The notes under the pieces: generated by a model | The model's database searches: none | Told to the model about the DNA's origin: nothing | The model's input: the letters and a program-made list of their open reading frames with translations, nothing else | Made by a program: the position numbers and the translations under genes | Assembly: GCA_019638775.1 (NCBI GenBank) | Contig: JAHBTD010000001.1 | Location: 1-64,000, forward strand | Reading direction: 5' to 3' | DNA: 64,000 nucleotides | From: Fimbriimonadaceae bacterium | GTDB lineage: Bacteria > Armatimonadota > Fimbriimonadia > Fimbriimonadales > Fimbriimonadaceae | Part shown: piece by piece, positions 43,997-61,593 of the stretch | How the letters are laid out: every line of letters starts with the position of its first letter | How positions within the stretch are numbered: the stretch's first letter is position 1

Positions 43997-44058
43997 TAAC
44001 CTGCCAATATCTGCATGCAAAGGTTGGACAGGCCAAGGCCTGCCCAACGCGATGGAGC

Positions 44059-45263: not shown

Positions 45264-46706
45264 TTGATATTTCCAAGGATCATTCAGGGTGGCATGGGCA
45301 TCGCAGTTTCGTCTTGGCCCCTCGCTTCAGCTGTTTCCAGAAGAGGCCAGCTCGGGGTCGTTTCCAGCTCTGGATTAGACGCTGTTTTGGCACGTCGGCT
45401 ACAAATGGGTGACCTCGGCGGACACTTACGACATGCGTTCGATCACTTCCCAATCAAGGAGATGGCTGACCGGATTTGGGCTCGTTATTTCATCGAGGGT
45501 GGCAAGTCCCCGTTGGCCGCCTTCAAGTCCAAGCCTCTCCCAGCCATCCGACCTTCGCAGGCTTTGCTTGAGCTGATCATTCTCGCAAACTATGTGGAAG
45601 TGTTCCTCGCCAAGCGCGGACACAATGGGCTGGTCGGGATCAATTTGCTTGAGAAAATTCAACTCCCGACCCTGCCTTCGCTCTACGGCGCGATGCTCGC
45701 CAAAGTTGATTACGTGTTGATGGGGGCTGGAATTCCCCGCGCAATCCCTGCCATCCTCGACCAGCTTTCCCAGCTAAAACCTGTGGAGCTGCCGCTCGAC
45801 GTTGTCGGAGCAGACCAGACCTACTTCACAAAATTTGAGCCTAAAGAGTTTTGTCCAGCCGGGACAACAGAGCTTCCACGCCCTGAATTCCTCGCGATCG
45901 TCTCCTCCTCCGCTCTGGCCTTGACGCTGGCAAGAAAGTGTACGGGCAAGGTGAATGGCTTTGTGGTCGAGGGAAAAACTGCCGGTGGGCACAATGCGCC
46001 CCCGCGTGGCGCCCTCGTGCTTGACGAGGCAGGCGAGCCCGTATATGGACCTCGCGATAACCCCGATCTGGGACAATTCCGAGAGATAGGGTTGCCGTTT
46101 TGGTTGGCGGGATCGTTTGGAAACTCGCTCAAACTGCACGAAGCTGTCGAGACTGGGGCGCAGGGTATTCAGGTCGGCACAGCGTTTGCCTTTTGCAACG
46201 AATCGGGGCTGGATCCAGCGATCAAATCGCGAACCCTTCACCAGAGCCTTGAGCATCGTGCCCGAGTTTTCACCGACCCGCTTGCATCCCCAACGGGCTT
46301 TCCCTTCAAAGTACTGCAATCCGAAGGCACACTATCCGAGGAATCGGTCTACGAAGATAGGGAGCGGATTTGCGATCTGGGATACCTTCGCGAACTCTAC
46401 CAAAAGGAGGATGGGAAAGTGGGATATCGATGCCCAGCAGAGCCGCTCGACGACTACATCAGCAAGGGCGGTGATCCTGCAAAGGCTGTGGGTCGGAAGT
46501 GCGTATGCAATGGGCTTTTTGCGACCATAGGCTTGGGCCAGGTTCGGAAAGAAATACCCGAAGCGGCCCTTGTCACGGCAGGGGACGATGTGCAGAACAT
46601 CGCCCAATTCCTCAAGCCCGGACAGGATTCCTACTCGGCTGACGATGTTATCGACAGTCTCCTTCCCGCCGCTTCGCCAGATGAACCGCCTACTCTGGCT
46701 GTGTAG
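45264..46706 (+). CDS. Nitronate monooxygenase family protein (NMO/NPD-like)
   Basis: The 480-residue product is an FMN-binding TIM barrel: [18 protein letters not shown] at the start, then [43 protein letters not shown] (active-site region) and [19 protein letters not shown] (phosphate loop). Known members oxidise nitronates such as propionate-3-nitronate, releasing nitrite or nitrate. TTG at 45264 is preferred: AAGGA is 7 bp upstream and homology begins right there; a longer TTG start at 45222 would overlap the -10. The operator upstream ties it to the nitrate cluster. Its tail overlaps the convergent reductase by 17 bp. Confidence 0.85.
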
Positions 46707-48873
46707 ATGGAGAGATCTTCACGCATGCCTTCTTGAATTCTGGGATCTTGCTGAGGGGATCATAGGCTCGAATAGTCAGGTTGTTCGCTGCTTTCGGTCC
46801 TGCCCAATGGTAAGGAATGAAGACTGTGTCGGGACGGATCGTTGTCACGACCTTCGCCTTAAGAACGACCTCACCGCGCCGACTCTCAACTCGCATCCAC
46901 TCCCCATCCTTGATCCCATACTCTTCAGCAAGCTGTGGATGAATCTCGACATAGGGATCGGGACACAAGTCCACCAACGCACCGATGCGGCGCGTTTGCG
47001 TACCGCTGAGATAGTGCATCACCACCCGCCCAGTCGTTAGGATCACCGGATATTCCTCGTCCGGCTCTTCGGCACTGGGACGATATGCGGTTGGGTGGAA
47101 ATGAGCTTTACCGTCGGGTGTGTGAAATTTGAGGTCTTCAAATAACCGTGGTGTTCCGGGATGTCCGATCTCCGGGCAAGGCCAAAAGACGCCCATTTCG
47201 TCAACGACGCGCTGATAGGTGATGCCGTAATAGTCGGCAGTACCACCTTTGCTGGCGATGCGAAGTTCGTTAAAGATGTCTTCGGAGGTCTTGAAGTGAC
47301 TGAAGTATTGACCTCGTCCGAGCTTCTCCGCAAGTGTGAGGATGATTTCTGTATCAGCCCTGGCATCCCCAGGAGGATCGACGGCCTTATTGATCTTGAT
47401 GACGCGGCCCTCGGCGCTGGTGCTAGTGCCCTCTTCCTCCTCGTGGAGTGAACCGGCCATGACGATGTCGGCATGGTGAGCTGTCTCGTTCAAGAAAAAG
47501 TCGATGGCGGTGTAGTGCTCCAACTTATCGAGGGCTTCGCGCGTGAAATTGGAGTCCGGCAATGAAACGAGCGGGTTGAAGCAGATGCTGATAAGGGCCT
47601 TAATCTCCCCGGCGTGGATCATCTCCATGATCTCGGGAGCGGGGTGGCCCTTGCCAGGGAGCTCCGGTTCGGGGATTCCCCACACATCAGCGATGTACTT
47701 CCGATGCTCTGGATTGGTGATGTCTCGGTTACCGGGCAGCTGGTCGCACTTATGCCCATGCTCACGTCCGCCTTGTCCATTCCCCTGACCAGTGATCGTT
47801 GCATAGCCGCAGCCGGGCTTACCCAAGCGTCCAGTGGCAAGAACAAGGTTGATGCAAGCGAGGACATTATCGACACCTTTCGTGTGGTGCTCGATCCCGC
47901 GCGCATGCAGCAAGAAAGATGTTTTGGCCTGGCCCCACATTCGGGCGGCAGCGACGATGTCCTCCACATTCACACCGCTGATTCGGCTGGCCTCATCCAA
48001 GCTCATCGCCAAAGCCGTCTGCTTGGTCTCCTCCCAGCCTGAGGTGTAGTTGGAGATGAACTCTTCGTTGGTAAAACCTTCTTCAATCAGGACTCGTAGC
48101 ATTCCAAGCAGAAGCGCCGAATCAGCGCCCGGCCTCACCGGAAGATGGAGTGTGCAGGTTCGCGCGATCGGGGTCACCCGAGGGTCGATCACGATCAGCT
48201 TTGCGCCCTTGTCGCGGGCGCGCCAGACATAATCGGTGGTAATGGGGGAGCATTCGGCTACATTCGTACCGATGCAAAGAATGACCTCGGCGGTTAGGAT
48301 GTCTTCCCAAGAGTTCGCCGCTCGGTCAATGCCAAAAGCTTTTTTGTTTCCTGTCCCCGCGCTCACCATACAAAGCCGGCCATTGTAGTCCAGTTCCTTG
48401 GTTTGAAGAGCAACTCGGGCAAATTTCCCGACCAGATAGCTCTTCTCGTTAGTCAGTGAGACTCCAGAAAGGATAGCGACAGCATCCTTGCCATATTTCG
48501 CCTGGACGCGCTGGATCTCACTCACCGTCGTGGCGTATGCCTCCTCCCATGAAATCGGAACAAATCCCTTGCCTTCCACACGCTTCATCGGGTGCATAAG
48601 GCGGTCAGGGTGACTGCCCTGCATATAGCGCTTGATTCCCTTCGGGCACAGTTTGCCGCGATTAAATGGAAAGTCTTCCCACGGTTCAAAGCCGATCACC
48701 CGGTTATCTTTGACCTTGAGCTGGATACCGCACTGCTGGCCACAGAAGCAACAATGGGTCTTGACAAGCTTGTCCGGTTCGCCCCGCCCAACCCAACCTC
48801 CCGGCGGGTCGTAATTCAGCGTCGGGCCGAACTGCTTCTGTAACTCTTCGATGGTAATCGGCGGGTGGGCCAT
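46690..48873 (-). CDS. Molybdopterin oxidoreductase, assimilatory nitrate reductase-like (NarB/NasA type)
   Basis: The product is 727 residues. The N-terminal 4Fe-4S site is C41-x2-C44-x3-C48 ... C76 ([17 protein letters not shown]). [16 protein letters not shown] supplies the Cys molybdenum ligand seen in NarB/NapA/FdhF, and a C-terminal molydopterin-binding domain has [18 protein letters not shown]. Length and the Cys ligand fit cytoplasmic assimilatory nitrate reductase better than formate dehydrogenase (no selenocysteine codon), but the substrate is inferred from neighbours. No Tat signal. ATG at 48873 is chosen because the Fnr-type operator predicts transcription starting near 48920. Divergent from the NarG-like operon and sharing its operator. 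Confidence 0.82.
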
Positions 48874-48953
48874 ACCCAAATGTTGGCTCTCACACGAGCG
48901 CGCGTCTATGACGCGAATCATGCCTCGGTAACTCCACGAAAAAAGACTCCGAA

Positions 48954-48997
48954 TATGACCGCAGTCATAGCGCACATACGTCTCCACGCCTGAGAAT
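48954..48997 (+). promoter_or_regulatory. Shared Fnr-type operator between the two molybdoenzyme genes
   Basis: Palindrome TATGAC-CGCA-GTCATA at 48954-48969, 22 bp before a good -10, GAGAAT (48992-48997). The predicted start near 49003 lies 38 bp before the NarG-like ATG. The same site lies about 41 bp before a plausible start (48920) for the divergent reductase. Bases after the site (GCGCA) also resemble those after the 45180 site (GCGCG). Confidence 0.7.
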
Positions 48998-49040: not shown

Positions 49041-51485
49041 ATGGCAACGCGACATGCGGTTCCTGGCAGATTTAAGAAGCCCAAACCTGAAGAAGAGGTT
49101 CGAGTTGTACGAACCACCGACAGTCCGAACTGTACGGGAGCTTGCGGCTGGCTTGCCACTGTTATCAATGACGTCATTGTGGATTTGAAACCAGCTGCAG
49201 ACTATCCGTGCCAAGAGTACAACCCCCGAGGTTGCCTGCGTGGAATGTCGATGACGCACCTCATCTACGGGCCGGACCGCATCAAGGCCCCTCTCATCCG
49301 CGATGGCGCTCGTGGAGAGGGGAAATGGCGGACAGTGACGTGGGACGAAGCTCTGGATTACATCGCCGGAAAGATGATCCACATCCGCGATAATTACGGC
49401 CCGGAAAGCATGTTGCTGTTCAATCAAGTGGTCGGTACGGGCTACGTCCAGAAGGGTGCGCAAGTGCGGATGGCGGCTCTTCTTGGTATGTCCTTCGCTA
49501 CCGCCTATGATTTCAATGGCGACATCTCGATGGGCTTTACGCACACGGTGGGTATCGATTGTGTCGAATGCGAAACGAAGAGTTGGGGGCATTGCAAGAC
49601 CGCAATCTTGTGGTCGAGCAACGTTTTCCAAACCCGCATTCCCGACGCCAAATTCCTGACGACCCACGCCAAACAACGCAACAACTGCCAGATCATCAGC
49701 ATTGATCCCCGGTGCAGCCAGACCGCCAAAGGGGCCGATCAATGGCTGCCCATTAACCCCGGAACCGATGCGGCACTCGCCCTTTCGATGTGCCAAGTCG
49801 TGATCGAGAATCAGCACGTCGATTGGGAGTTTGTCAAGAAGTACACCGACTTTGGCACCTTGATCCGCGACGACAACGGGGCCCGTCTTCGTGCCTCTGA
49901 TGTTGGTATGGGAACGGAGGCGGAGTTCATCGTTTGGGATGAAGGCAAAGATGAGCTATTCAAGCTCCCGATGGAATCGTTGAAGCTCCCGGACGACATT
50001 CGATTTGCCTTTCATGGAACTCGCGAAATCAAGTTGAAGGATGGGGGCACGATCAAGGTCACTCCCGTCTATCAACTCCTCGAAGACATCGTAATGCGGC
50101 AGGAGTATTCGCCGGAACGGGTCGCCGAAATCACCGATATCCCCGCTGCAACGATCCGCGACATCGCCATTCGCTACGCCACCGAAAGGCCAAGTTCGAT
50201 CATTATCGGCATGGGGATCAACCACCGACTGCATGGTGATCTCACCATCCGGGCGATTCTCCTTCTCTCGGCCCTGGTTGGGGCACATGGCAAGCCGGGT
50301 GAATCGGTCTCCATCTACTCTGGGCAGCACCACTTTCGGCTGGATGTGTCCAGTTGGTGGTTCCCAGACGGCAAACGGCCGAACGGCGTGCCGATGCATT
50401 ACTTCGTCATGGGCAAACCCACAGAGACGATCAACCCCAAGATCAAGTACCCCAAAGATGGATTTAAAGCGCTCTTTGTCTCGCACGGCAATCCTTTGGT
50501 TACTGAGTTTTCTGGTCCGCTGAAAGAGGCTATTGACAAGCTTGATCTCTTTGTGACCATCGACTTTTCGATGTCGCCGACATGCGAATATTCCGACGTC
50601 GTTTTGCCCGCACCTACGTTCTGGGAGAAAGTAGATTTGGTCGGCACCAGTTGCCACCCCTATCTTCAAATTCAGCAGGAAGTCTTGACTCCCCGATACG
50701 ACAGCCGTACGGAGATGTGGATGGTGCGCGAACTGCTAAAGCGCATCGACCCCAGCCTCAACAAGTACTTCGATCTCAACGAATTTGACGCGATTGAGAT
50801 GATGCTCAAATCGGGTGGCAAAGAGGTTGAGGGGATCACCGTCGAACAGCTTAAAGAGGGTCCGGTGCGGCTGAACGTTCACGACCCCGAATGCGGGCTT
50901 GACGAGCAGTTCCACGAAGACAAGCTCTTCCCGCCCCGAGCCTATCCGTTCCCAGAAGGCGTCCAGCGCGAATTTCTCAAGACGGGCCGCATGGAGTTCT
51001 ATAAGGAGGAGGAGATTTTCCAGAAGGTTGGTGAGAGCGTCCCAATCTTTAAGTGGGCATTCGAGCATCTGCCGGAAGATCAGCAGAGGATGCCGCTTGC
51101 CATCGTGACCCCCCACTCGAAATGGAGAGTCCATTCCACCCACAGCAACAATACGTTCCTGCTCAACCTCAACCGCAAGCCAGTGATCGAGATCAACCCA
51201 CGCGATGCTGCAGCGCGAGGCATCGCCGACGGCGACCAGGTTGAAGTCTTTAACGACAACGGTTCTTACCAACTGTGGGCGCTGATCACTGAATCGATCA
51301 AGCCTGGCGTGGTTTGTGTGGACCACGGTTGGTGGGATCGATATCTCGGTGGGGGCAAGTATCACAGTGTCCATACCCACCAAAAGGTCAAACCGACCCA
51401 CGAGAACTATTATCTCCCTGCCGTGTATGCCCCTGGGCAGCACTGGAAAGACACCCGTGTAGACATCAGGAAGGTGAATGCGTAA
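49041..51485 (+). CDS. NarG-like molybdoenzyme catalytic subunit, type II DMSO-reductase family
   Basis: The 814-residue product resembles NarG in NCTGACGW, YNPRGCLRG and AYDFNGDISMG...TAILWSSNVFQTRIPDAKFL. Asp157 aligns with NarG's Asp molybdenum ligand. C31-x3-C35 and C65 align with FS0 ligands, but the position of NarG's His ligand is Asp27 (DSPNC). It is about 400 residues shorter than NarG and has no Tat signal, so it should act on the cytoplasmic side. With the electron-transfer genes downstream it probably reduces nitrate; other oxyanions are possible. ATG at 49041 has AAGGTG 8 bp upstream. It starts a six-gene operon; the stop overlaps the next ATG (TAATG). Confidence 0.85.
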   Translation: MATRHAVPGRFKKPKPEEEVRVVRTTDSPNCTGACGWLATVINDVIVDLKPAADYPCQEYNPRGCLRGMSMTHLIYGPDRIKAPLIRDGARGEGKWRTVTWDEALDYIAGKMIHIRDNYGPESMLLFNQVVGTGYVQKGAQVRMAALLGMSFATAYDFNGDISMGFTHTVGIDCVECETKSWGHCKTAILWSSNVFQTRIPDAKFLTTHAKQRNNCQIISIDPRCSQTAKGADQWLPINPGTDAALALSMCQVVIENQHVDWEFVKKYTDFGTLIRDDNGARLRASDVGMGTEAEFIVWDEGKDELFKLPMESLKLPDDIRFAFHGTREIKLKDGGTIKVTPVYQLLEDIVMRQEYSPERVAEITDIPAATIRDIAIRYATERPSSIIIGMGINHRLHGDLTIRAILLLSALVGAHGKPGESVSIYSGQHHFRLDVSSWWFPDGKRPNGVPMHYFVMGKPTETINPKIKYPKDGFKALFVSHGNPLVTEFSGPLKEAIDKLDLFVTIDFSMSPTCEYSDVVLPAPTFWEKVDLVGTSCHPYLQIQQEVLTPRYDSRTEMWMVRELLKRIDPSLNKYFDLNEFDAIEMMLKSGGKEVEGITVEQLKEGPVRLNVHDPECGLDEQFHEDKLFPPRAYPFPEGVQREFLKTGRMEFYKEEEIFQKVGESVPIFKWAFEHLPEDQQRMPLAIVTPHSKWRVHSTHSNNTFLLNLNRKPVIEINPRDAAARGIADGDQVEVFNDNGSYQLWALITESIKPGVVCVDHGWWDRYLGGGKYHSVHTHQKVKPTHENYYLPAVYAPGQHWKDTRVDIRKVNA

Positions 51486-52204
51486 TGGCACGAATGTCCA
51501 TGCTGGTCGACCTCACGCGGTGCATTGGTTGCGATGCTTGTACGATGGCATGCAAGCAGGAGAACGGCACTCCAATGGATACGTTTTTTGCCCGTGTGCT
51601 GAACGTCGAAGTTGGTGAGTATCCGAATGTAAAACGGGTCTACATTCCCGTCCTTTGCAACCACTGTGAGGATGCTCCTTGCCTGAAAGCCTGTCCCAAC
51701 AAAGCGATCGTTCGTCGTCAGGACGGCATCGTCTTGATAGACCAAGATCGTTGTCGAGGGACCGGAGCATGCGTCTCTTCATGCCCGTACGGAAACATCA
51801 TTTTGTCGCAGGTCGACGGTTGGTATCTGGACGGTGAAGAGCCCTATGAAGAGGAGTACGTCAAGCCGAGACTGAAGCCAAACGTCGCCCGAAAGTGCAC
51901 TTACTGTGCGCATCGAGTGGATGAGGGTTTGAAGCCCGCTTGTGTGGTGGCCTGCCCAACAACAGCCCGCATCTTCGGCGATTTAGATGATCCTGAAAGT
52001 GACGTTTCTACTTACATCGTTGAGCAGGAGCGCTTGACTGGACGGAAGCCGTTTCATCTGCTTCCCCAAGCCGGGACCAAACCAGCCGGATCGTATCTCG
52101 GCACGATGGCTGACCAAGAGGTGAAGACCACGGGTCAGGCGGCAAGCCCGGAAAACCCACTCAAGGCCACTGTTGAAGCACATGCCGACGGAGGAAATCT
52201 GTAA
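51485..52204 (+). CDS. Four-cluster ferredoxin subunit (DmsB/NrfC/NarH-like)
   Basis: The 239-residue product has four cysteine groups: CIGCDACTMAC (13-23), CNHCEDAPCLKAC, CRGTGACVSSC and CTYCAHRVDEGLKPACVVAC. This is the ligand set for four iron-sulfur clusters in the electron-transfer subunit of molybdoenzymes. It is about half the length of NarH and closer to DmsB/NrfC. It passes electrons from the membrane subunit to the NarG-like protein. ATG shares one base with the upstream stop and the TAA shares one base with the next ATG, implying fixed stoichiometry. Confidence 0.92.
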   Translation: MARMSMLVDLTRCIGCDACTMACKQENGTPMDTFFARVLNVEVGEYPNVKRVYIPVLCNHCEDAPCLKACPNKAIVRRQDGIVLIDQDRCRGTGACVSSCPYGNIILSQVDGWYLDGEEPYEEEYVKPRLKPNVARKCTYCAHRVDEGLKPACVVACPTTARIFGDLDDPESDVSTYIVEQERLTGRKPFHLLPQAGTKPAGSYLGTMADQEVKTTGQAASPENPLKATVEAHADGGNL

Positions 52205-53349
52205 TGTTCAGATGGCTGTCTTTCGTCATTCTCTGTAGCGTCGTGACCCTTGGCCTCGCTCAAACTTCCGACCTTCAAAAGACCGCTTCCGAGCATAAGG
52301 ATGTCTTCTCAACTTCGAATTGTATGGGTTGCCATGGACAGAACGGAATGGGCGGTCTCGGCCCTCCGATCGTGAAAGGATCGCTTGAATATGAGCATTT
52401 CTTGAAGGTTGTGCGAGAAGGCAAGGGAATGATGCCTGCAACCTCCAAGGCCGATCTTTCTGACGATAAACTGCGTGCGATCTACGACGAACTGCAGTCG
52501 AAAGCATGGCTGCCCCACGAGATCCCGATCGCGTATAAGGTGGGCCAGTTTCTATCGACGAAGAACGTTTCTCGCATCTTCCTCGGAGTGTTCCTATTCG
52601 CCGCAATCTTCGCTATCCGTGGCTTGGGATTGTGGTTCAGAGCTGCTGGCTTTGCTCAACTTTGGCCACGGCTGCTGAAGATGGGGCTGTTCAAATCGTT
52701 GGGTATCGCCATGAAGGCATTCATCGTGGATGGCTTCTTGGTGAGTTCGCTCTGGAAAAAAAGCAAACACCGCTGGCTAATGCACGGACTGATCCTTTAC
52801 GGTTTCTGCGGGCTGCTTGCCGCCGACATCCTGATGGCGATCTACAACCCAACGCGCAGCCAACTGCCCCTCACCAATCCTCTAAAGCTCCTGCCCGTTC
52901 TCTCTGGCATTGCCGTGTTGATGGGTGTCAGCTTCGTCATGGTCCGCTATCGCAAGGACAACTACATCGACAACGGCCTGACTCTCGGGAAGGACTTCCT
53001 TTTCGTGAATCTGCTCTTCCACACGGTCGTCAGCGGGTTCCTGACAGTGGTCCTAAAGAGATTCGGCATCCACGACTGGGTGATGACGATCTACCTCTAT
53101 CATCTGGCCTCAATCACTTTGCTGATCGCCACGGCACCGTTTACGCGCTTCCAGCACGTTTGGGTCGTGCCGATTATGGTCGCTCTCACACGATTGACGG
53201 ATGCTGTTGCCGAATCGGGCGTCGATATCGGATTCGAGCGGGAACCGTCGCCCGGACGGCATCACAAGTCTGAGCGGATCGCCGCCAACGTCATGGAGCA
53301 GCTTGGACCGGAGTACGACGGTCCCATACGCCTCCGCTACTACCCCTAG
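52204..53349 (+). CDS. Cytochrome c / NarI-like membrane cytochrome b fusion
   Basis: The 381-residue product starts with a signal peptide (residues 1-19). A mono-heme cytochrome c domain follows with CMGCH (40-44) and a Met ligand candidate in GKGMMPAT (about 75). The rest is a membrane domain with about six helices: FLGVFLFAAIFAIRGLG, HRWLMHGLILYGFCGLLAADILM, FVNLLFHTVVSGFL, IYLYHLASITLLIATAPF. Paired His residues suit two b hemes as in NarI-type quinol oxidases. Covalent joining of a periplasmic cytochrome c to a NarI-like anchor would let quinol and cytochrome electrons meet in one subunit. Confidence 0.82.
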   Translation: MFRWLSFVILCSVVTLGLAQTSDLQKTASEHKDVFSTSNCMGCHGQNGMGGLGPPIVKGSLEYEHFLKVVREGKGMMPATSKADLSDDKLRAIYDELQSKAWLPHEIPIAYKVGQFLSTKNVSRIFLGVFLFAAIFAIRGLGLWFRAAGFAQLWPRLLKMGLFKSLGIAMKAFIVDGFLVSSLWKKSKHRWLMHGLILYGFCGLLAADILMAIYNPTRSQLPLTNPLKLLPVLSGIAVLMGVSFVMVRYRKDNYIDNGLTLGKDFLFVNLLFHTVVSGFLTVVLKRFGIHDWVMTIYLYHLASITLLIATAPFTRFQHVWVVPIMVALTRLTDAVAESGVDIGFEREPSPGRHHKSERIAANVMEQLGPEYDGPIRLRYYP

Positions 53350-53357
53350 GTGCCCTT

Positions 53358-53861
53358 ATGAGTCACAACAATTCGAACCCTCAAGATGACACTGTCAAGA
53401 ACAAGGAGAGACGAAAATTCCTTGGGATCGCCGTCGGGGTCATCAACATCGCCCTGATTGGTGCGATTGTCGGGCCTGTACTCGGTTTCGTCGCTTCTCC
53501 TTTGAAGCGACGCAAAAAAGGAGAGTGGGTGGCTGTCCTTGATGACAGCCACCTAGCCCCCGGAGACGTCAAGGATGTCAGCTTCACGATGCGGATTCGC
53601 GACGGTTTTCAGGACGTGGATCGGCAATATACAGTCTTTCTACGCAAGTCGGACGACGGCGTAGTATGCATCGACCCGGCCTGTACACACCTCGGCTGTC
53701 GAGTGAAGTACCAATCTGATCAACACCGGTTCCTTTGCCCATGCCATGGCGGCGTTTTCAACCAAGATGGCGACGTCGTTTCCGGTCCTCCGCCCAGGCC
53801 GCTTGACAAGCATCCGGTGAAGGTTGAGGGCGGGAAAATCTGGATCTATAAGGAGGTTTAG
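53358..53861 (+). CDS. Rieske iron-sulfur protein
   Basis: The 167-residue product has an N-terminal membrane anchor (residues 22-45, following basic KERRK). A Rieske fold follows with CTHLGC (C109, H111, C114) and CPCHGG (C127, H130), the four 2Fe-2S ligands plus disulfide cysteines, then the GPPPRPL loop. It lies 8 bp after the cytochrome c/b fusion and before the cytochrome b gene, together forming the core of a bc-type quinol-oxidising complex. Confidence 0.94.
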   Translation: MSHNNSNPQDDTVKNKERRKFLGIAVGVINIALIGAIVGPVLGFVASPLKRRKKGEWVAVLDDSHLAPGDVKDVSFTMRIRDGFQDVDRQYTVFLRKSDDGVVCIDPACTHLGCRVKYQSDQHRFLCPCHGGVFNQDGDVVSGPPPRPLDKHPVKVEGGKIWIYKEV

Positions 53862-53864
53862 GCA

Positions 53865-55118
53865 GTGTCAAAAATACTTCTCCCCCATGACGACAAAGAG
53901 CACACGCTATCCCCTGAAGTCCCCGCAGATAAAACTCGAGAGACCGAGACTGAAGAAGAGGAGCTGCGTCTTCGCCGGCCAAGTCTTGGCGACTGGCTTG
54001 ATCTTCGCTTGGGTTGGTACGGGTTCGTTCGCAAGAATCTCGACGAGCCAATGCCCGCCGGTGTTGGATGGTGGCAAACACTCGGGAATTTGCTGTTAAC
54101 CCTTTTGATGTTCCAGTTCATCACCGGCTTTGCACTGGCGATGTACTACACGCCGAGCACCGTAGGGGCGCATGCGAGCGTCAAGCACATCACGTATGAA
54201 GTGACCCTCGGCTCTTTCGTTCGTGGGCTTCACGTTTGGGGCTCAACCATCATCGTGATTGCCGTTGTGCTCCACACTTTGCGTGTCTTTTTCTGGGGCT
54301 CCTACAAGAAGCCCCGTGAGCTCACCTGGGTTGTTGGCGTGCTCATCTTCCAGGTCATTCTCGGCTTTTCGTTCACCGGCTACCTATTGCCGTGGGATCA
54401 GAAAGCGTATTGGGCGACGGTCGTCGGGACGAATATTGCAGGCACGATCCCAGTGATCGGAGACGACCTCATTCTGCTCGTCCGTGGTGGGCCGGAGGTC
54501 GGGGCGCTGACCCTCACGCGGTTCTTCTCACTCCACGTCATGTTCTTGCCAGCGATGCTCATGGGATTGATGGGCTTGCATCTGTACCTTGTACGCAAGC
54601 ACCACATCGCTGGCCCAGTGAATCCTCAAAAGGGACCGCCCGTGGCGTTCTATCCCAACCAACTCTTTAAAGACGCCATTGTTCTGCTCTTTGGGGTTGG
54701 CTTGGTCATTTACCTCGCCATCGGTTTCCCGCCAGCGTTAGAAGCGATCGCCGATCCGACGGGAACCGACTTCTCCCCGCGTCCCGAGTGGTACTTCCTC
54801 GGCCTGTACGAGTTGCTAAAGATCATGCCTGCGGGATATGAAATCGTCGCAACTGCCATTATCCCAGGGCTCGTCACCATCGGCATGTTTGCCTTGCCTT
54901 GGCTTGATCGTTCAAAGTCGCGGCATCCGGCAAAGAGGCAATGGATTATCTATACCGGGACGGCCGTAATTCTCATGATCGGCTTGATGACTTTGAAAGG
55001 GATTTTGGAGACACCGCCCGAGCACAAAGCTCCACCCGTAGTAGGAGCTACTCAGGCTCCTTCGTCAATGCGTGAAGTAGCACCGAAATCACTGCCAGCG
55101 GAGGGCAAACAACCATGA
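53865..55118 (+). CDS. Cytochrome b of a bc/b6f-type complex
   Basis: The 417-residue product has a charged N-terminal 60 residues, then about eight membrane helices with the heme His pairs (RGLHVWGSTIIVIAVVLHTLR; FFSLHVMFLPAMLMGLMGLH). GYLLPWDQKAYWA lies at the quinol site and PEWYFLGLYELLK (the conserved PEWY) in the subunit-IV-like half, which is fused here. It oxidises quinol with the Rieske protein. GTG at 53865 has AGGAGG 8 bp upstream; the stop overlaps the hemerythrin ATG (ATGA). No separate bc cytochrome c1 is present; the upstream c domain may serve. Confidence 0.94.
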   Translation: MSKILLPHDDKEHTLSPEVPADKTRETETEEEELRLRRPSLGDWLDLRLGWYGFVRKNLDEPMPAGVGWWQTLGNLLLTLLMFQFITGFALAMYYTPSTVGAHASVKHITYEVTLGSFVRGLHVWGSTIIVIAVVLHTLRVFFWGSYKKPRELTWVVGVLIFQVILGFSFTGYLLPWDQKAYWATVVGTNIAGTIPVIGDDLILLVRGGPEVGALTLTRFFSLHVMFLPAMLMGLMGLHLYLVRKHHIAGPVNPQKGPPVAFYPNQLFKDAIVLLFGVGLVIYLAIGFPPALEAIADPTGTDFSPRPEWYFLGLYELLKIMPAGYEIVATAIIPGLVTIGMFALPWLDRSKSRHPAKRQWIIYTGTAVILMIGLMTLKGILETPPEHKAPPVVGATQAPSSMREVAPKSLPAEGKQP

Positions 55119-55585
55119 AACGCCATAAAGTACTGCAACCATTTTCGCGCGACCACAACGTCGGGCTGGTTCTCGCGCGTCATCTCATCCAGAACCCCAA
55201 ACAAGAGACTCTCGCCAAGTGCGTGCAGGTGTGGGACGATGAGATGAAGAACCACTTCGAAGAAGAGGAGTTGTTGCTTGTTCCGATGGCAAGCATCGCA
55301 ATGTCGGCAAGACTTTTCAAGGAGCATGAAGATATTCGGGAGACGATTGAATCGGCTCGTGCGGGAACGCTTCCCGAAGCGAAGATACGCGATCTTGGCA
55401 AAAAGTTGCGGGAGCACATCCGTTGGGAAGAGAACGAACTCTTTCCTGCGGTTGAAAGAAGCGGGGCGATAGAGTCGATCTTGGAAGCAACGGATGCGAT
55501 GGAGGCCCGTCGAAGTAACTCCCCCCACAGCCCGCGTCGTGGCGAGCTAGTGAGCAGAGGCCGTAACAATGCCGACCACCTCTGA
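55115..55585 (+). CDS. Hemerythrin-domain protein
   Basis: The 156-residue product is a four-helix HHE protein: SRDHNVGLVLARHL, KNHFEEEELLLVP, LFKEHEDIRETI and LREHIRWEENELFPAVE give the His/Glu set for a di-iron site. Such proteins bind oxygen or nitric oxide, or help repair iron centres under nitrosative stress. It is the last gene of the nitrate operon (ATGA overlap with cytochrome b), in keeping with NO made during nitrate or nitrite reduction. The C-terminal 30 residues are a basic, disordered tail. Confidence 0.9.
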   Translation: MKRHKVLQPFSRDHNVGLVLARHLIQNPKQETLAKCVQVWDDEMKNHFEEEELLLVPMASIAMSARLFKEHEDIRETIESARAGTLPEAKIRDLGKKLREHIRWEENELFPAVERSGAIESILEATDAMEARRSNSPHSPRRGELVSRGRNNADHL

Positions 55586-55635
55586 CCTGCCATCAAGCTT
55601 GAGGCGACAAAGCATTCAGGCAAACTCCTGAATCG

Positions 55636-55660
55636 GCCCCCACTCAACAGGGGGCTTTTT
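55636..55660 (+). terminator. Rho-independent terminator of the NarG-like operon
   Basis: Stem GCCCCC/GGGGGC (55636-55641 with 55650-55655), 8-base loop, then TTTTT. It lies 51 bp after the hemerythrin stop. Confidence 0.88.
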
Positions 55661-55788: not shown

Positions 55789-56526
55789 TTACTTCAGAGC
55801 AAGCTTGACAGCAGCAAAGATCAGAACGCATGCAAGGGCACGCCGCAACGTTGTATTGGGGATAGCAAACGCGCCTACGTACGAGCCCACCAGCGATCCA
55901 CACAGTCCAGCAAAGGCGAAGACCCAAATCTGATTCGGAAGCGTTGCTCCCTGAGAAATGCGACCCGCTAACCCGATCGCTGAATTTGCCACGATAAAGA
56001 TCGCTGAGCTTGCAGAGGTTTCCTTTGCCGTTGCCCAACGATGAAGGACAAGAATTGGGCTGAGAAAGATTCCTCCCCCCACACCGACCATGCCCGACAG
56101 CAACCCGATCCCTGCGCCAGCCGCAATACCGACAGGAACGCTAGACGGTCTTGTCGGCAAACCGTCATCATGCTTGCGAATGAACAACAGACGAACGCCC
56201 GCAATCAGTAGGGTAAGGCCGACGAGTGTAAAGTAAGCCGTGTCCGTAAGCTTGATGATTGAACCCACAAATGCAAGAGGCAAAGAACCGATCAGAAACG
56301 GCCAAGTAAGTCGCCAGTTAAAATGCTTCGCCAGGCTGTAGAGCACGAACGAGGTCCCCGCTACAACCAGGTTGATGGTGAGTGCGATTACCGCGATTTG
56401 CTTTGGTAAGAGGGGCGAGATCGCCAGAAGGCCGAGATAACCAGAAGCCCCGCCGTGCCCCACCATCGAATAGATCATCGCAATGACAGCGATGCCGGCA
56501 ACAAACCAAAGAGAAAGATCAGCCAT
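55789..56526 (-). CDS. TauE/SafE-family membrane transporter
   Basis: The 245-residue product has eight hydrophobic segments in two similar halves. The first begins GIAVIAMIYSMVGHGGASGYL, the second GIGLLSGMVGVGGGIFLSPIL, the GxxxGxGGG repeat marking TauE/SafE (sulfite or organosulfonate export). ATG at 56526 has GGAGAGG 5-11 bp upstream and overlaps the MoaE-MoeB fusion by 8 bp; the longer frame to 56616 runs into that gene. As last gene of the Moco operon it may move sulfite, sulfur compounds or another anion linked to cofactor sulfur chemistry; substrate unknown. Confidence 0.87.
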   Translation of the reverse strand: MADLSLWFVAGIAVIAMIYSMVGHGGASGYLGLLAISPLLPKQIAVIALTINLVVAGTSFVLYSLAKHFNWRLTWPFLIGSLPLAFVGSIIKLTDTAYFTLVGLTLLIAGVRLLFIRKHDDGLPTRPSSVPVGIAAGAGIGLLSGMVGVGGGIFLSPILVLHRWATAKETSASSAIFIVANSAIGLAGRISQGATLPNQIWVFAFAGLCGSLVGSYVGAFAIPNTTLRRALACVLIFAAVKLALK

Positions 56527-58057
56527 GACCTCTCCTTCCTGCTGTTTCGCTTGAGGATGTTCTGGACGACGTGTGTGGAGGGGTGGAGGCCAGCTGGCAA
56601 TTTCCTTCAACACCACCCGCTAGGGACCGCACGTTCGTAAAGCCCCGTTCACGCAACATTTCAACGGCTCGATAGCTCCGCAACCCACTCTTGCAGACCG
56701 TTAGATAGGAGCGATTGGGATTGAGCCCTTCAATGCCTTCCTCAAATTTTGATAGAGGGAAATGCCGCCAATCATCGACGCCGAAGTCCAAACGCGGACG
56801 CTCTTCATCCAATTCTCGAACGTCCAATATCACTAAGTTTAAGGATTCTTCCTTGCTCAATTCGGACATGTCCACTTCGAGTGATAGTCGTGTGTGTCCT
56901 CCACATCCACAAACCGGACACTCAGGATTCCTCGGACGATCCAGGTGATGCACAGCATATGTCTGCAAATCCATCAGCAAGAGGCTACGGCTGAGTATGT
57001 CGGGAAAGCCGAGCAGATATTTGATCGCCTCATTGGCTTGCAGCGCTCCGAACACTCCCGGCACCACGCCGAGCACCCCAATCTCGGCACATGTGCCTAC
57101 ACAACCGTCTGTCGGTGCTTCGGGCCATAGACAGCTTAAACATCCTGCATTCGAGGATGGATCGTAGAGGTGAATCTGGCCCTCGAATCGGTGGATGCTG
57201 GCTTGAACGAGCGGTTTTGCGTGTCGAACCGCGAGATCGTTCAGCAAGAACTTCGTGCGGAAATTGTCGGTGCAATCGAGAACCAGGTCGTAGCCCTTGA
57301 GTAATGCCTCGGCGTTGCTTGGGGTCAGCCTGCACACATGTGCGTTAGCCTCGATAAATGGATTCTGTCGAGCGATGCGGGTGGCAGCGAGTTCAGCCTT
57401 TGGTTTACCCACGTCCGCAGCACCGAAGAGTGTCTGACGGTGGAGGTTTGTGGCATCGACCCGGTCAAAGTCACAAACGCCGATCGTCCCTACTCCTGCC
57501 GCTGCGAGATAGGGCAACGCCGCACAGCCCAATCCCCCCACCCCAACGACCAGCACACGGGCGTCACGTAGGTGTTGCTGCCCGACATCTCCAACTTCTT
57601 CAAGTCGGATTTGACGTCCGTAAAAAGAAGCCTCGTTGACAGGTGCGGCCGAGGGCGCCGCGTCAGCGCCTACCCAGCCCGAATCGCCATCAGCATAATG
57701 CTCTTTCTTCCAAATCGGGACCCGGCGCTTTAACGCATCCAAAATCCATTCGCAGGCCTCAAACGCCTCTCTGCGATGCGCCGCCGCTACCCCGATCCAA
57801 ACGGCAGTTTCACCAATCTCCAATCTGCCAACACGGTGAATAGCCTCAACTGAAAGCAAGCCGAACCTCTCAGCTGCCTCCAAAAGGAGTTGCCTACCCT
57901 CGGCTTCAGCAAGGTCTTGGGGGGCCTCATATTCTAGCGCGAGAACTTCACGGCCCTGGTGATGGTCGCGAATCTTTCCCTCGAAACTGACGAAACCGCC
58001 TGCCCCCGCACAATGCATCACGACGGGTACAAGCGGTTCAGAAGTGATCCTGAACAT
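56519..58057 (-). CDS. MoaE-MoeB-rhodanese fusion
   Basis: The 512-residue product joins three Moco enzymes. Residues 1-135 are MoaE, the large subunit of molybdopterin synthase (FEGKIRDHHQG, KRRVPIWKKEHYADG with the active Lys). Residues 140-390 are MoeB, the adenylyltransferase that activates MoaD (GVGGLGCAALPYLAAAG at about 172, DFDRVDATNLHRQTLFG, and Cys pairs CLSC and CPVC for zinc). Residues 400-500 are a rhodanese (ILDVRE, CKSGLRS with the persulfide Cys). One chain could load sulfur on MoaD and use it. ATG follows the MoaD stop by 2 bp (a GTG at 58060 overlaps it). Confidence 0.92.
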   Translation of the reverse strand: MFRITSEPLVPVVMHCAGAGGFVSFEGKIRDHHQGREVLALEYEAPQDLAEAEGRQLLLEAAERFGLLSVEAIHRVGRLEIGETAVWIGVAAAHRREAFEACEWILDALKRRVPIWKKEHYADGDSGWVGADAAPSAAPVNEASFYGRQIRLEEVGDVGQQHLRDARVLVVGVGGLGCAALPYLAAAGVGTIGVCDFDRVDATNLHRQTLFGAADVGKPKAELAATRIARQNPFIEANAHVCRLTPSNAEALLKGYDLVLDCTDNFRTKFLLNDLAVRHAKPLVQASIHRFEGQIHLYDPSSNAGCLSCLWPEAPTDGCVGTCAEIGVLGVVPGVFGALQANEAIKYLLGFPDILSRSLLLMDLQTYAVHHLDRPRNPECPVCGCGGHTRLSLEVDMSELSKEESLNLVILDVRELDEERPRLDFGVDDWRHFPLSKFEEGIEGLNPNRSYLTVCKSGLRSYRAVEMLRERGFTNVRSLAGGVEGNCQLASTPPHTSSRTSSSETAGRRGHG

Positions 58058-58059
58058 CA

Positions 58060-58308
58060 CTACCCACCCGCCACTGGTGGGATGAGGACGACACAGTCAC
58101 CATCGGCAAGTCCTTGGTTCAAGTCTCCTAGCTTGCCGTTAACGCCCGCCCGAACCATATCGGGGCTTAAAGTAAATCCGTGCTTCACTCGGAGCTCGTT
58201 GTATAGCTCTTTGACATTCGTGACGTGGGCGCTGACTGTTTCGTGGCTAGCTCCGCGCTGCTCGCGAAAGATAGCGAAATATTGCACATCAACTTGAATC
58301 TCTTTCAT
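58060..58308 (-). CDS. moaD: Molybdopterin synthase sulfur carrier MoaD
   Basis: The 82-residue product has a ubiquitin-like fold with the terminal Gly-Gly (PPVAGG) that carries the thiocarboxylate, VQYFAIFREQRG at the start and GVNGKLGDLNQGLADGDCV. It donates sulfur to MoaE. ATG shares one base with the moeA stop (TGATG) and has GGAGG upstream. It directly precedes the MoaE-MoeB-rhodanese gene. Confidence 0.93.
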   Translation of the reverse strand: MKEIQVDVQYFAIFREQRGASHETVSAHVTNVKELYNELRVKHGFTLSPDMVRAGVNGKLGDLNQGLADGDCVVLIPPVAGG

Positions 58309-59555
58309 CACTTCGACCTCCATGGCGTATGCACAAAACTGACAATGCCGCCAGCCTCAATACAATCGCTTTCCGGCGGCAACTTGATCCATGAGTTGGC
58401 GAAGGCAAGGCCACCGAGCATGTGAGAGCCACGCCTTTCGAGTGGTTCTAAAACCCACTCACGATCTCGCCAAACCGCGATCGTAGGCACAAACTCCAGA
58501 CGACCCTTCTTCTTGCGGAGCGGCTTTGCCGTTCGGCCTTCAAACTCTTCGATCAGCGGATCGAGCCCTTGGCAAGATCGTAAAAATGGCTCCACGAGCA
58601 CGGCAAACGTAACGAGAGCCGACATTGGATTTCCGGGGAGTCCGAAGACCGGAACGGTCCGTCCATCCTCCCGAAAAAGGCCAAAGTAGAACGGCTTTCC
58701 GGGTTTGATGGCAACGCCCCAAAACTCAGTCTGGATGCCAGCCTCTTTCATCGCCGATTTCACGGTGTCGTATTGGCCCACCGAAACCCCGCCGGACGTA
58801 ATCACAACATCGTTGCGCATAACCAAGCCACCCAGCGCCGTAACCGTCGGGGCTTCGACATCGGGCGAGTGCACACGTTCAAAGCTTTCGATCCCTAACT
58901 CCCTCAGGGCCGCTTCGATGCCGTAGCTGTTGGATTCATAAATCTGCGTTCCGTGGAGTTCGTATCCAGGTGGCGTCAGCTCGTTTCCAGTAAAGAGCAT
59001 TCCAACTTTCGGTCTGCGCCAGACCCGTATATCCCTTTTTCCCGAAGACGCGGCCATGGAGGCTCCAGCGGGATTCAGCAATGTGTTCGCAGGCAGCAGC
59101 TCTGTCCCAACTTCGTACTCCTCACCGGCGAACCGAATATGCTGGCCGGCACATGCACTTCCCGAAAGGCGAACCTGCGTCCCCTCCATGACGGCGTCCT
59201 CTTGCATCACAATGGCGCTCGTCCGTTCCGGAACACGTGCCCCCGTCAACACATAAGCGGCGACGCCCTCAGCGATGGGGGCTTCGGGTATGGGATCACC
59301 TGCGGCAACGGTTTTCCCAAGATCGAGCATCAAACTCCCCGACTCTTCGAGCTTCATACGATCCGCTTCACTTATCGCAAAACCATCTACGGCTGAGTTG
59401 TCGAATCGCGGCATCGGATGAACGCTAAACACTGGCTCCGACAAGACTCTTCCGATCGCTTGCGACAAGCCCACGCCCTCCGTTCCGAACGTGCGAGCAC
59501 GGGACAGGATTGCGGCAAGCGCCTCTTCGTAGCTTAGGAGTCGGTCCTTAACCAT
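58308..59555 (-). CDS. moeA: Molybdopterin molybdenumtransferase MoeA
   Basis: The 415-residue product, usual length for MoeA, inserts molybdate into adenylylated molybdopterin. Visible are MPRFDNSAVDGFAI (N-terminal substrate site), GARVPERTSAIVMQED, a central MoCF domain with VGMLFTGNEL, IYESNSYGI, VITSGGVSVGQYD and FGLPGNPMSALVTF, and a beta-barrel C-terminus. ATG at 59555 overlaps the previous gene by 8 bp; the longer frame to 59618 is not homologous. Confidence 0.95.
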   Translation of the reverse strand: MVKDRLLSYEEALAAILSRARTFGTEGVGLSQAIGRVLSEPVFSVHPMPRFDNSAVDGFAISEADRMKLEESGSLMLDLGKTVAAGDPIPEAPIAEGVAAYVLTGARVPERTSAIVMQEDAVMEGTQVRLSGSACAGQHIRFAGEEYEVGTELLPANTLLNPAGASMAASSGKRDIRVWRRPKVGMLFTGNELTPPGYELHGTQIYESNSYGIEAALRELGIESFERVHSPDVEAPTVTALGGLVMRNDVVITSGGVSVGQYDTVKSAMKEAGIQTEFWGVAIKPGKPFYFGLFREDGRTVPVFGLPGNPMSALVTFAVLVEPFLRSCQGLDPLIEEFEGRTAKPLRKKKGRLEFVPTIAVWRDREWVLEPLERRGSHMLGGLAFANSWIKLPPESDCIEAGGIVSFVHTPWRSK

Positions 59556-60459
59556 GGGACGCACCTTCTCGCATAGAGAGGTAATGCTTGACGTACGGGA
59601 ACAGACTGTCGAGTGCATCGCGGCATGCTCCCGGTGAACCTGGAAGAGCCAAGATCAACGTGCATCCTCGCTGGCCCGCAACGGTACGGCTGAACATCGC
59701 GAACGGAGTGCGCTGTCGGCTATAGCTTTGAAAATGCTCCTCAATCCCTTCTATGCGCTTGTCCAGTAAGGGCAAGATCGCTTCTGGAGTGAGGTCTCGG
59801 GGGCCGATGCCCGTTCCACCCGTGAGAAGGATGAGGTCGATCCCGTCGTCGTCAGCGAGTTTGCGTACTTGGTTTTGCAGCGCTTCAGGATCGTCCGGCA
59901 GTATTACAAGTCCAACGCCTTGCGCACCGAACTCCTCAAGTCCGGCTTTCAAGATCGCGCCGGATGTATCCTCCCGTTCGCCCTTGCTTGCAGAATCGGA
60001 AACGACAATGACAGCGGAGTGAAACGCCCCTGCAAGTCCATGGGCGAAGTTCGACTTCCCTCCCGTCTTCTCCACGAGCCGGACGCTATCAATCTCCATC
60101 GTATCGTCGAGCATCTTAAGCATGTCGTAAATGTTGAGAACTGCCGCCGAAGCCCCGGTCAACGCCTCCATTTCGACACCAGTTTTATAAATCGCCCGCA
60201 CACTGACCGTGACCTCAATGCGATCCTCTTTAATTTCGAGATCCACACCAATTCCGTCGACAGGAATCGGATGGCAATAAGGAAGGATGAGGGGAGTGTT
60301 CTTCACGGCCTGAATGGCGGCGACCTTCGAGACGGGGATGGGATCGCCCTTGGGGACCTTTCCTTGGCGAATAATGGTGATCGTCTCTGGGGAGACGGTG
60401 ATGACGGCTTTCGCGGTAGCCGTTCTCATTGTTGAAACCTTTGCGGATACGTCTTTCAT
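59548..60459 (-). CDS. moaCB: MoaC-MogA/MoaB fusion
   Basis: The 303-residue product is bifunctional. Residues 1-150 are MoaC, which makes cyclic pyranopterin phosphate (PLILPYCHPIPVDGIGVDLEI, VEMEALTGASAAVLNIYDMLK, VRLVEKTGGKSNF). Residues 155-303 are a MogA/MoaB domain, which adenylylates molybdopterin (VIVVSDSASKGEREDTSG, DLILLTGGTGIGPRDLTPEAI, LPGSPGACRDAL). ATG at 60459 follows the moaA stop by 1 bp. Such fusions are known in several phyla and make the two pathway ends equimolar. Confidence 0.94.
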   Translation of the reverse strand: MKDVSAKVSTMRTATAKAVITVSPETITIIRQGKVPKGDPIPVSKVAAIQAVKNTPLILPYCHPIPVDGIGVDLEIKEDRIEVTVSVRAIYKTGVEMEALTGASAAVLNIYDMLKMLDDTMEIDSVRLVEKTGGKSNFAHGLAGAFHSAVIVVSDSASKGEREDTSGAILKAGLEEFGAQGVGLVILPDDPEALQNQVRKLADDDGIDLILLTGGTGIGPRDLTPEAILPLLDKRIEGIEEHFQSYSRQRTPFAMFSRTVAGQRGCTLILALPGSPGACRDALDSLFPYVKHYLSMREGASHG

Positions 60460-60460
60460 A

Positions 60461-61483
60461 TCAACCCCCGATCTGCACCATCGACCGATTCTCCAGTCTT
60501 TCAAGAAGACCCATTGGTGGATGCTCTTTCCACTTGCCCATCACACACTCACGAATAATCTCAGTCAATGCGTCATCTGAAGCGCCCGACCGCATCGCAT
60601 CGCGAAGGTTCGTCTCCGACGTTGAAAACAGGCAGTTCTTCATTTGCCCGTCGGCAGTCAATCGGACACGATTGCACCCACTGCAAAAGTTGTGGGTCAT
60701 CGACGTGATGAAGCCAATATTGCCTTCTCCATTCTCGATAGAAAATTCGGTCGCCACGGCTCCTGGGCAGGCGTCGATCGGCGCTAATCGATAGGCCGTC
60801 TCGATATCTCGCTTCATTTCGGCGAAGGGATACAGCCCGCCCGCTGACCATCCGTTCGCTTGGAACGGCATGAATTCGATAAAGCGCACCTGGATCAGCA
60901 TGGTCCGAGCCAGCTCCACAAAGTCGAGAATCTCGTCTTCGTTCACGCCCTTCATTACAACCATGTTCAACTTTACGGGTTCAAACCCAACTTCGAGCGC
61001 AGCTTGAATCCCGTCCAAAACTTGAGACAAACCATCGCGCCGGCTGATCGAAAAAAAACGGTCTGGACGCAATGTGTCGAGACTGATGTTGACTCCCGAG
61101 ATGCCAGCACCACGATACAAGGCAGCATGTTTTGCGAGGGCGATCCCATTCGTCGTGAGCAGGAGATCCTTGATGCCCTCGATCTTTGCGAGTGACCGAA
61201 CAAGGTCGGGCAAGTCTTTGCGAACCGTTGGCTCTCCGCCAGTCAATCGAACCTTTGAGACCCCACACTCGGCAAAAATCGTTGTAAGACGAGCGATCTC
61301 TTCAAAACTCAGAATCTCTTCCCGGCTCTTGCACACCACACCTTCCTCGGGCATGCAGTACACACACCTCAGGTTGCAGCGATCAGTGACAGACACCCTA
61401 AGGTAGGTATGCACACGGCCAAACCGATCCGTAAGCGGAGCTCGCCGGGTGTGCAAATCTTTCGGTAACGCGTGTGCGGTCAT
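60461..61483 (-). CDS. moaA: GTP 3',8-cyclase MoaA
   Basis: The 340-residue radical-SAM enzyme has C36-x3-C40-x2-C43 (CNLRCVYC), LTGGEPTVRKDL, ITSMTHNFCSGCNRVRLTADG with the C-terminal cluster cysteines, and a terminal Gly-Gly (QIGG) required for activity. It opens Moco synthesis by cyclising GTP. ATG at 61483 is chosen; the frame to 61615 would run through the divergent promoter. It is first of a six-gene minus-strand operon and lies 61 bp from an Fnr-type operator, so Moco supply should rise with the reductases. Confidence 0.95.
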   Translation of the reverse strand: MTAHALPKDLHTRRAPLTDRFGRVHTYLRVSVTDRCNLRCVYCMPEEGVVCKSREEILSFEEIARLTTIFAECGVSKVRLTGGEPTVRKDLPDLVRSLAKIEGIKDLLLTTNGIALAKHAALYRGAGISGVNISLDTLRPDRFFSISRRDGLSQVLDGIQAALEVGFEPVKLNMVVMKGVNEDEILDFVELARTMLIQVRFIEFMPFQANGWSAGGLYPFAEMKRDIETAYRLAPIDACPGAVATEFSIENGEGNIGFITSMTHNFCSGCNRVRLTADGQMKNCLFSTSETNLRDAMRSGASDDALTEIIRECVMGKWKEHPPMGLLERLENRSMVQIGG

Positions 61484-61543
61484 TTTCCTAAACAGGACCT
61501 GAATGGGTGCTCCATAAATATCCGCCAAAAGATTCGGGCTGGC

Positions 61544-61586: not shown

Positions 61587-61593
61587 GTGAGGC

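Follow-up and report, generated by a model that had tools for sequence, protein, structure and literature searches.

In haloarchaea, genes for a Rieske protein (narB) and a full-length cytochrome b (narC) share the pNar operon with genes for a type II catalytic subunit (narG), a NarH-like iron-sulfur (FeS) protein (narH) and narJ (PMC2483277), and antimycin A was reported to inhibit the haloarchaeal nitrate reductase (PMC2483277, PMC4683180). In the Thermus NarCGHJI and Nitrobacter-type nitrite oxidoreductase (NXR) systems, NarI connects a cytoplasmic enzyme with a cytochrome c on the outside (PMC7694296). The membrane-bound Nar1 of Streptomyces coelicolor was proposed to get electrons from a bc complex and depends on bcc-aa3 (PMC7931247). 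We analyzed a stretch of 64,000 nucleotides from Fimbriimonadaceae bacterium (Armatimonadota; assembly GCA_019638775.1, contig JAHBTD010000001.1, positions 1 to 64,000 of the forward strand; hereafter the window), which contains an operon at 49041-55585 for a type II molybdoenzyme, a cytochrome c fused to a NarI-like protein, a Rieske protein and a full-length cytochrome b. With a probability that we put at roughly 60%, the product of this operon is a menaquinol:nitrate oxidoreductase whose non-NarG molybdoenzyme faces the cytoplasm and is fed by its own bc complex; we infer its substrate, direction and coupling from motifs and gene context.

Operon structure and conservation

Six closely packed genes on the + strand form the operon. 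The first encodes an 814-aa catalytic Mo-bis(molybdopterin guanine dinucleotide) subunit of the type II dimethyl sulfoxide reductase group, without a twin-arginine translocation (Tat) signal (49041..51485; Pfam domains Molybdopterin and Molydop_binding); its ATG start at 49041 is supported by a conserved N-terminus, MATRHxVPGR. It is followed by a 239-aa FeS subunit with four Cys clusters (51485..52204; Fer4), a cytochrome c with one CxxCH motif fused to a NarI-like membrane cytochrome b (52204..53349; Cytochrome_CBB3 and Nitrate_red_gam, the latter at 23.2 bits against a cut-off of 22.9), a Rieske 2Fe-2S protein with a twin-Arg N-terminal anchor, RRKFLG (53358..53861; Rieske), a full-length cytochrome b with a GTG start (53865..55118; Cytochrome_B and Cytochrom_B_C) and, as the final gene, a hemerythrin-domain protein (55115..55585; Hemerythrin). 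Successive genes are joined by a 1-nt overlap, a second 1-nt overlap, an 8-nt gap, a 3-nt gap and a 4-nt overlap. These junctions and the Pfam domain identities agree with the original prediction, made from the window sequence alone, of a six-gene operon with very small overlaps and gaps that couples a NarG-like subunit and a c/NarI fusion to its own Rieske protein and full-length cytochrome b. The terminator that it placed at the end of the operon was found as an intrinsic-terminator-like hairpin (55635..55656, + strand); a hairpin scan detected 4 terminator-like sites compared to a mean of 8.0 in shuffled sequences, and this hairpin is therefore backed by its position only.

The window genome (G000; 4.3 Mb, 126 contigs) is 99.9% complete. 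Matches to the catalytic subunit (E up to 1e-60) were present in 40 of 291 genomes of the phylum, 28 of them within the family of the window genome; four of the 40 were distant (36-40% identity). Among named genomes we identified 33 loci, mainly from Armatimonadota at 65-86% identity. Elsewhere, catalytic subunits were found in a metagenome-assembled genome (MAG) of Bacillota (60%), in Desulfosporosinus, a genus of anaerobes, and Peptococcaceae CEB3 (51-54%), and in two Chloroflexi MAGs (44-48%).

With duplicates from the same genome removed, the comparison covered 35 armatimonad-type loci. The order catalytic subunit, FeS subunit, cytochrome c-NarI, Rieske, cytochrome b was complete in 31 of them, counting two (L081 and L084) whose catalytic gene is cut by a contig end, and this recurrence exceeds chance. 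As for the other four, the module ends at a contig edge in L054 and L074; in L067 the catalytic gene stands alone, and the other four genes form a group approximately 10 kb from it, beyond a set of molybdopterin genes; and in L080 the 2.4 kb available contained neither a Rieske nor a cytochrome b gene. The arrangement had been called unusual. It does differ from the haloarchaeal one, but it is a family-level trait of Armatimonadota and not a one-off. Two loci carry titles that look misassigned: L054 and L075 are labeled Methanoregulaceae and Acidobacteria, yet their catalytic genes are 84% and 72% identical to that of the window.

Four loci, from Desulfosporosinus, CEB3 and the Bacillota MAG, hold a smaller set, in which the catalytic and FeS subunits are accompanied by a NarI-like protein without CxxCH; neither a Rieske nor a cytochrome b gene was detected in them. 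Desulfosporosinus strains PR and SbF1 are among the bearers of this shorter set. The Desulfosporosinus relatives adjoin Hcp and an SLAC1-type anion channel, and one also adjoins an NIR_SIR-domain protein (Pfam, one example each).

The conserved unit does not include hemerythrin, which the original prediction had counted among the six coupled genes: the gene stands behind cytochrome b in the window but in none of the 35 compared loci, and hemerythrin-like genes elsewhere lie near other genes. We rejected it as a core subunit.

The catalytic subunit

The best NCBIfam model of the catalytic subunit was TIGR03479 (type II group; 492.7 bits, under the cut-off of 984.75), and the NarG equivalog model TIGR01580 scored 256.7 bits, under its cut-off of 1084. 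In profile alignments, Asp161 fell on NarG Asp222, Asn30 on Asn52 and Asp27 on His49. We take NarG Asp222 to be the Mo ligand and NarG His49 to be the non-Cys ligand of the cluster FS0. By alignment, both the Mo-ligand Asp and the substrate-site Asn of the type II group are present, and Asn30 and Asp161 are conserved as in NarG and PcrA; these two roles were partly taken from PMC8387239. The Armatimonadota and Bacillota members share Asp27; the two Chloroflexi members have Cys there. FS0 of Kuenenia NXR is bound by three Cys and one Asp, the Asp being at the next ligand position (PMC8387239).

A phylogenetic tree was built with IQ-TREE and PMSF from forty rows, which contained no NXR, partial PcrA and EbdA, and several branches flagged as long. 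Armatimonadota and Bacillota catalytic subunits formed one clade (100/100), which the Chloroflexi pair joined at weak support (83/77). A second group (100/99) comprised NarG of E. coli, Thermus and Haloferax, PcrA, EbdA, two Tat-bearing armatimonad enzymes and a chlorite-dismutase-linked enzyme. This grouping makes the catalytic subunit sister to, and not a member of, the known type II enzymes sampled. The phylogenetic check suggested with the original prediction, run against NarG, PcrA and EbdA, placed the enzyme inside none of the known families sampled and did not make it a NarG. The term NarG-like is apt only as far as the type II group as a whole is concerned; more narrowly, NarG, PcrA and EbdA form a clade that does not include the protein, which also scores far under the NarG cut-off.

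No NarJ family protein (PF02613) was found anywhere in the window genome, as had been expected from the locus, and 5 of the 28 operon genomes have one somewhere. A canonical NarGHI was rejected because the protein scored under the model cut-off and fell outside NarG in the tree, and because NarJ was missing.

AlphaFold models of the cytochrome c-NarI protein and the catalytic subunit had mean pLDDT values of 82.5 and 80.5. The catalytic model matched PcrA (Z 41.5), NXR (39.0), EbdA (37.5) and NarG (35.0); these top rows do not decide the substrate. In sequence comparisons, the match to PcrA was 435 bits.

FeS subunit, cytochrome c-NarI protein and membrane topology

The FeS subunit was initially described as a ferredoxin of DmsB size. 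Its size agrees, but its third cluster has another residue in place of one Cys (CRGTGAC), a change also seen in NarH (CRGWRMC), and a 3Fe-4S cluster is therefore expected there. The pattern of this cluster in the clade is C-x2-T/A-x2-C-x3-C; the replaced position is W in NarH, Y in Haloferax NarH and F in the chlorite-dismutase-linked enzyme, and it is Cys in the Chloroflexi relatives.

In the NarI-like part of the fusion protein, His300 and His318 aligned with NarI His187 and His205 in helix 5 (hhalign, 82%), and helix 2 has one invariant His (194) instead of two. The top Foldseek matches of its model were NarI, at a probability of 1.00 but a weak E value of 0.012.

Additional fusions bear on the orientation of the complex. 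The FeS subunit and cytochrome c-NarI form one polypeptide in 11 of the 31 complete loci. In the two fusions analyzed for hydrophobic helices, one helix lies between the FeS part and cytochrome c and is followed by membrane helices, so the FeS part stands before the first hydrophobic helix and cytochrome c after it. No twin-Arg motif was found in the catalytic or FeS subunit of the window, in agreement with the original prediction of no Tat signal, whereas the Rieske protein carries one. Together, the fusions and the Tat pattern argue for catalytic and FeS subunits on the cytoplasmic side and cytochrome c outside. The linker of the fusions is signal-peptide-like and the mature protein may be cleaved; the topology argument would hold either way.

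One further fusion was observed in L080 (9962-15228), where an open reading frame of 1116 aa comprises the catalytic C-terminus, the FeS subunit, cytochrome c and NarI. The N-terminal part of the catalytic subunit is in another frame, a frameshift or assembly error, and the next gene, as read from sequence, codes for an SLAC1/TDT-like protein.

The bc complex and its genome context

All marks of a Rieske/cytochrome b complex are present, namely the Rieske domain, the PEWY motif and the two His pairs of cytochrome b (123/137 and 224/239). The spacings of 14 and 15 are what we take to be the b6f type. This cytochrome b is the sole PF00033 match in the window genome. Cytochromes b of the operon class, defined after the table was seen as PF00033 matches spanning profile positions 3-187, were present in 28/28 family genomes with the operon and 0/57 without it (85 genomes). 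Other classes of cytochrome b occurred both with and without the operon, and one genome (G102) has a second operon-class copy.

The window genome contains one COX1, approximately 6 kb from an NrfD protein (contig 751-759 kb), in a run of genes for a pentaheme cytochrome c, a 1059-aa protein, NrfD and a CoxB with a heme-c motif. We read this cluster as a probable alternative complex III (ACIII)-caa3 for oxygen respiration. NrfD and COX1 were no more than approximately 7 kb apart in all 15 operon genomes tested. A role of the operon bc complex as housekeeping complex III is disfavored by this separate cluster.

NarK-type transporters were found in 27/28 operon genomes compared to 16/57 without the operon. 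Among genomes without a full NasC, NarK was present in 10/10 with the operon versus 1/35 without; among those with NasC, the counts were 17/18 and 15/22 (p 0.05). In 19 of the 28 genomes, NarK lies within 15 kb of the catalytic gene. Other recurrent neighbors included a Crp/Fnr-type regulator (12 loci), NnrS (6 loci) and molybdopterin genes. NrfA was detected in 13/28 operon genomes versus 6/57 without the operon, and NIR_SIR in 0/28 versus 8/57. Complete denitrification was considered and rejected: no NirK scored above the cut-off in the 85 genomes, and each of 15 genomes has a single COX1-family protein, which leaves no separate NorB of that family in them.

Proposed mechanism and alternative explanations

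In the proposed menaquinol:nitrate oxidoreductase, menaquinol would be oxidized by cytochrome b and the Rieske protein in a Q-cycle, as suggested by their PEWY and Rieske motifs. Gene order and the fusion suggest that the Rieske protein would then reduce the cytochrome c that is attached to the NarI-like protein on the outside, from which a NarI-type heme b would carry electrons across the membrane to the ferredoxin subunit and on to the Mo site, a topology consistent with the FeS-c-NarI fusions. Nitrate would be imported by the adjacent NarK proteins and reduced to nitrite in the cytoplasm, as the gene context suggests. With a Q-cycle added to NarGHI-type charge separation, approximately 4 charges would be translocated for every 2 electrons, where NarGHI alone moves 2. 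The Bacillota form, which has no cytochrome c, would draw electrons directly from quinol, and the armatimonad form looks like a Bacillota-type core plus a bc front end.

Several points weigh against this mechanism. The NarI-like protein keeps three of the four heme-ligand histidines of NarI, so that a two-heme wire is not certain. NarK is present in 15 of the 22 operon-free genomes having NasC, and transport may therefore partly serve assimilation. The window genome shows no NrfA, NIR_SIR or NirK above cut-off. The family genome counts (28 versus 57) ignore kinship, and absence of the operon is based on one cut-off. Finally, we found no tested substrate for any enzyme of the catalytic clade; A. 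acetoxydans was dropped as a pointer to nitrate, since its enzyme is a canonical NarG (52% identity to E. coli) and provides no evidence for the operon substrate.

One alternative is that the bc module is merely co-transcribed, the NarI-like subunit being fed by menaquinol directly as in NarGHI, and that the Rieske protein, cytochrome b and cytochrome c serve other acceptors. The catalytic-FeS-NarI sets of Desulfosporosinus, CEB3 and the Bacillota MAG lack the cytochrome c domain and have neither a Rieske nor a cytochrome b gene next to them, which indicates that the core of the enzyme can function with no bc complex, and Thermus NarC was proposed to hand electrons to other acceptors (PMC7694296). 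However, in the armatimonad form cytochrome c and the NarI-like protein are covalently linked, the operon-class cytochrome b accompanies the operon in 28/28 genomes and is found in 0/57 others, and oxygen respiration has its own ACIII-caa3 cluster. We consider such bystander genes unlikely.

The substrate may also be another high-potential oxyanion, such as chlorate, perchlorate, selenate or iodate. PcrA is the best match in both structure and sequence (Z 41.5; 435 bits), and the closest plasmid match (33%) adjoins a chlorite dismutase family gene. On the other hand, chlorite dismutase was not among the annotated recurring neighbor families, a comparison that could overlook a rare or unannotated gene, and the NarK linkage and the NnrS, Hcp and NasC neighbors point to nitrogen oxides, making a different oxyanion rather improbable. 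Reverse operation, with a cytoplasmic nitrite oxidoreductase sending electrons to cytochrome c and the bc complex serving reverse electron flow, would recall the Nitrobacter-type NXR, which uses NarI and NarC homologs towards complexes III and IV (PMC7694296), and the FS0 Asp ligand of Kuenenia NXR, at another motif position (PMC8387239), but it is very unlikely given that the Desulfosporosinus relatives have no cytochrome c and that operon genomes are enriched in NrfA, which is a reductive partner.

Returning to the menaquinol:nitrate oxidoreductase, a bolder version of it is possible, though we hold it tentatively and at somewhat less than even odds. The operon would then represent a second, independently evolved lineage of non-NarG cytoplasmic nitrate reductases that assembles with a dedicated bc complex into a single supercomplex, in which a Q-cycle followed by inward transfer gives approximately twice the charge of NarGHI per electron pair. 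The redox tuning by the FS0 Asp and by the loss of the cluster III Cys, and likewise the NarI-like anchor, would have arisen apart from NarGHI, from a Chloroflexi-like ancestor. The Chloroflexi relatives keep Cys at both the FS0 position and FeS cluster III, and one of them (L079) has an NrfD-like membrane protein, as read from sequence.

If a bc-fed nitrate reductase is indeed encoded here, nitrate respiration would have two coupling sites in series, like oxygen respiration, and could give more energy than the textbook NarGHI; ACIII-caa3 for oxygen and bc-Nar for nitrate would divide labor in one cell. Surveys using NarG and NapA models would also overlook such nitrate reducers, because the enzyme scores below the NarG and type II cut-offs. 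One survey names Desulfosporosinus acidiphilus as reducing nitrate although it has neither NarG nor NapA (PMC10949509); this offers a lead but does not test the idea.

Gene neighborhood in the window

A NasC-like, assimilatory-type nitrate reductase (46690..48987, - strand; 831 bits to NasC, cut-off 1100) is transcribed divergently from the operon. This enzyme and the operon catalytic subunit are the two Molydop_binding proteins of the window genome. The NasC-like enzyme is present, yet the genome has no NIR_SIR nitrite reductase. Downstream of the operon, the - strand carries a TauE/SafE-type permease (55789..56616; Pfam) and molybdopterin synthesis genes: a MoaE-MoeB-rhodanese fusion (56519..58060), a MoaD-like small protein with a C-terminal GG (58060..58323; read from sequence, no model scan), MoeA (58308..59618), a MoaC-MogA fusion (59548..60504) and MoaA (60461..61615). 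The two fusions, MoaE-MoeB-rhodanese and MoaC-MogA (56519-60504), are unusual. Two NarK-family transporters follow on the + strand, one at 61594..63069 (191.7 bits to TIGR00886, cut-off 311.7) and another whose gene start lies at 63415..64000 (match at contig 63470-64570, 306.9 bits). Further upstream, a heavy-metal-type efflux pump (38847-44116) consists of an AcrB-family protein and a CusB/HlyD-type protein with heavy-metal-binding domains.

Comparison with known systems

We found no published account of the operon for Armatimonadota or Fimbriimonadaceae in a search that was mostly at the title and abstract level and covered subscription journals poorly; the terms 'armatimonad' and 'desulfosporosinus' are absent from the main text of PMC10100899. 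The five-gene order was not present in the E. coli, Thermus or Haloferax operons examined, in line with the expectation that it is not common in characterized nitrate reducers.

Two other systems were noted during this comparison. In a genome of another family of the same phylum (G226), L052 (106-9430) contains an outward-facing system with a Rieske protein, a 513-aa cytochrome b, a cytochrome with six CxxCH motifs and a Tat-bearing type II catalytic subunit; further genes, read from sequence, look like an EBDH-type gamma subunit and a TorD chaperone. This system looks like a bacterial counterpart of haloarchaeal pNar. On an Alisedimentitalea plasmid typed as conjugative (L096, 3960-9489), a chlorite dismutase family gene adjoins a Tat-bearing type II enzyme with FeS protein, TorD and cytochrome c, which is likely a chlorate or perchlorate reductase.

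E. coli NarGHI resembles the operon in its cytoplasmic Mo enzyme and its 3Fe-4S-type FeS subunit, and may also share with it the NarI-type cytochrome b, whose two helix-5 histidines align. It differs in that NarG has 1247 aa and is 26% identical over a part, NarJ is present, NarI itself oxidizes quinol, and the operon contains no cytochrome c, Rieske or cytochrome b. PcrAB is the closest solved structure to the catalytic subunit, but PcrA falls outside the operon clade in the tree and has His at FS0 where the operon enzyme has Asp; its operon presumably has no NarI-like anchor and no bc module. S. coelicolor Nar1 differs in what we take to be a canonical NarGHI without a dedicated operon, served by the bcc complex of oxygen respiration. 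The Thermus NarCGHJI and Nitrobacter-type NXR systems have a separate cytochrome c protein, a long canonical NarG and NarJ, and the Thermus operon contains no Rieske or cytochrome b.

Rieske and cytochrome b genes beside haloarchaeal nitrate reductase genes, to which the original prediction had pointed, were indeed seen in the pNar locus that we compared (L099) and are described in PMC2483277. However, the pNar enzyme faces outside and has a Tat signal (PMC2483277, PMC7754194), whereas the window enzyme has none, and the haloarchaeal locus has a TorD-family chaperone and an EBDH-related protein but no NarI and no c-NarI fusion. Identities between the two are 30% for the catalytic subunit, 28% for cytochrome b and 25% for the Rieske protein. 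Our best reading is that the armatimonad operon is a new bc-linked nitrate-reductase variant that combines covalent fusions with a non-NarG catalytic subunit and is conserved across much of the family.

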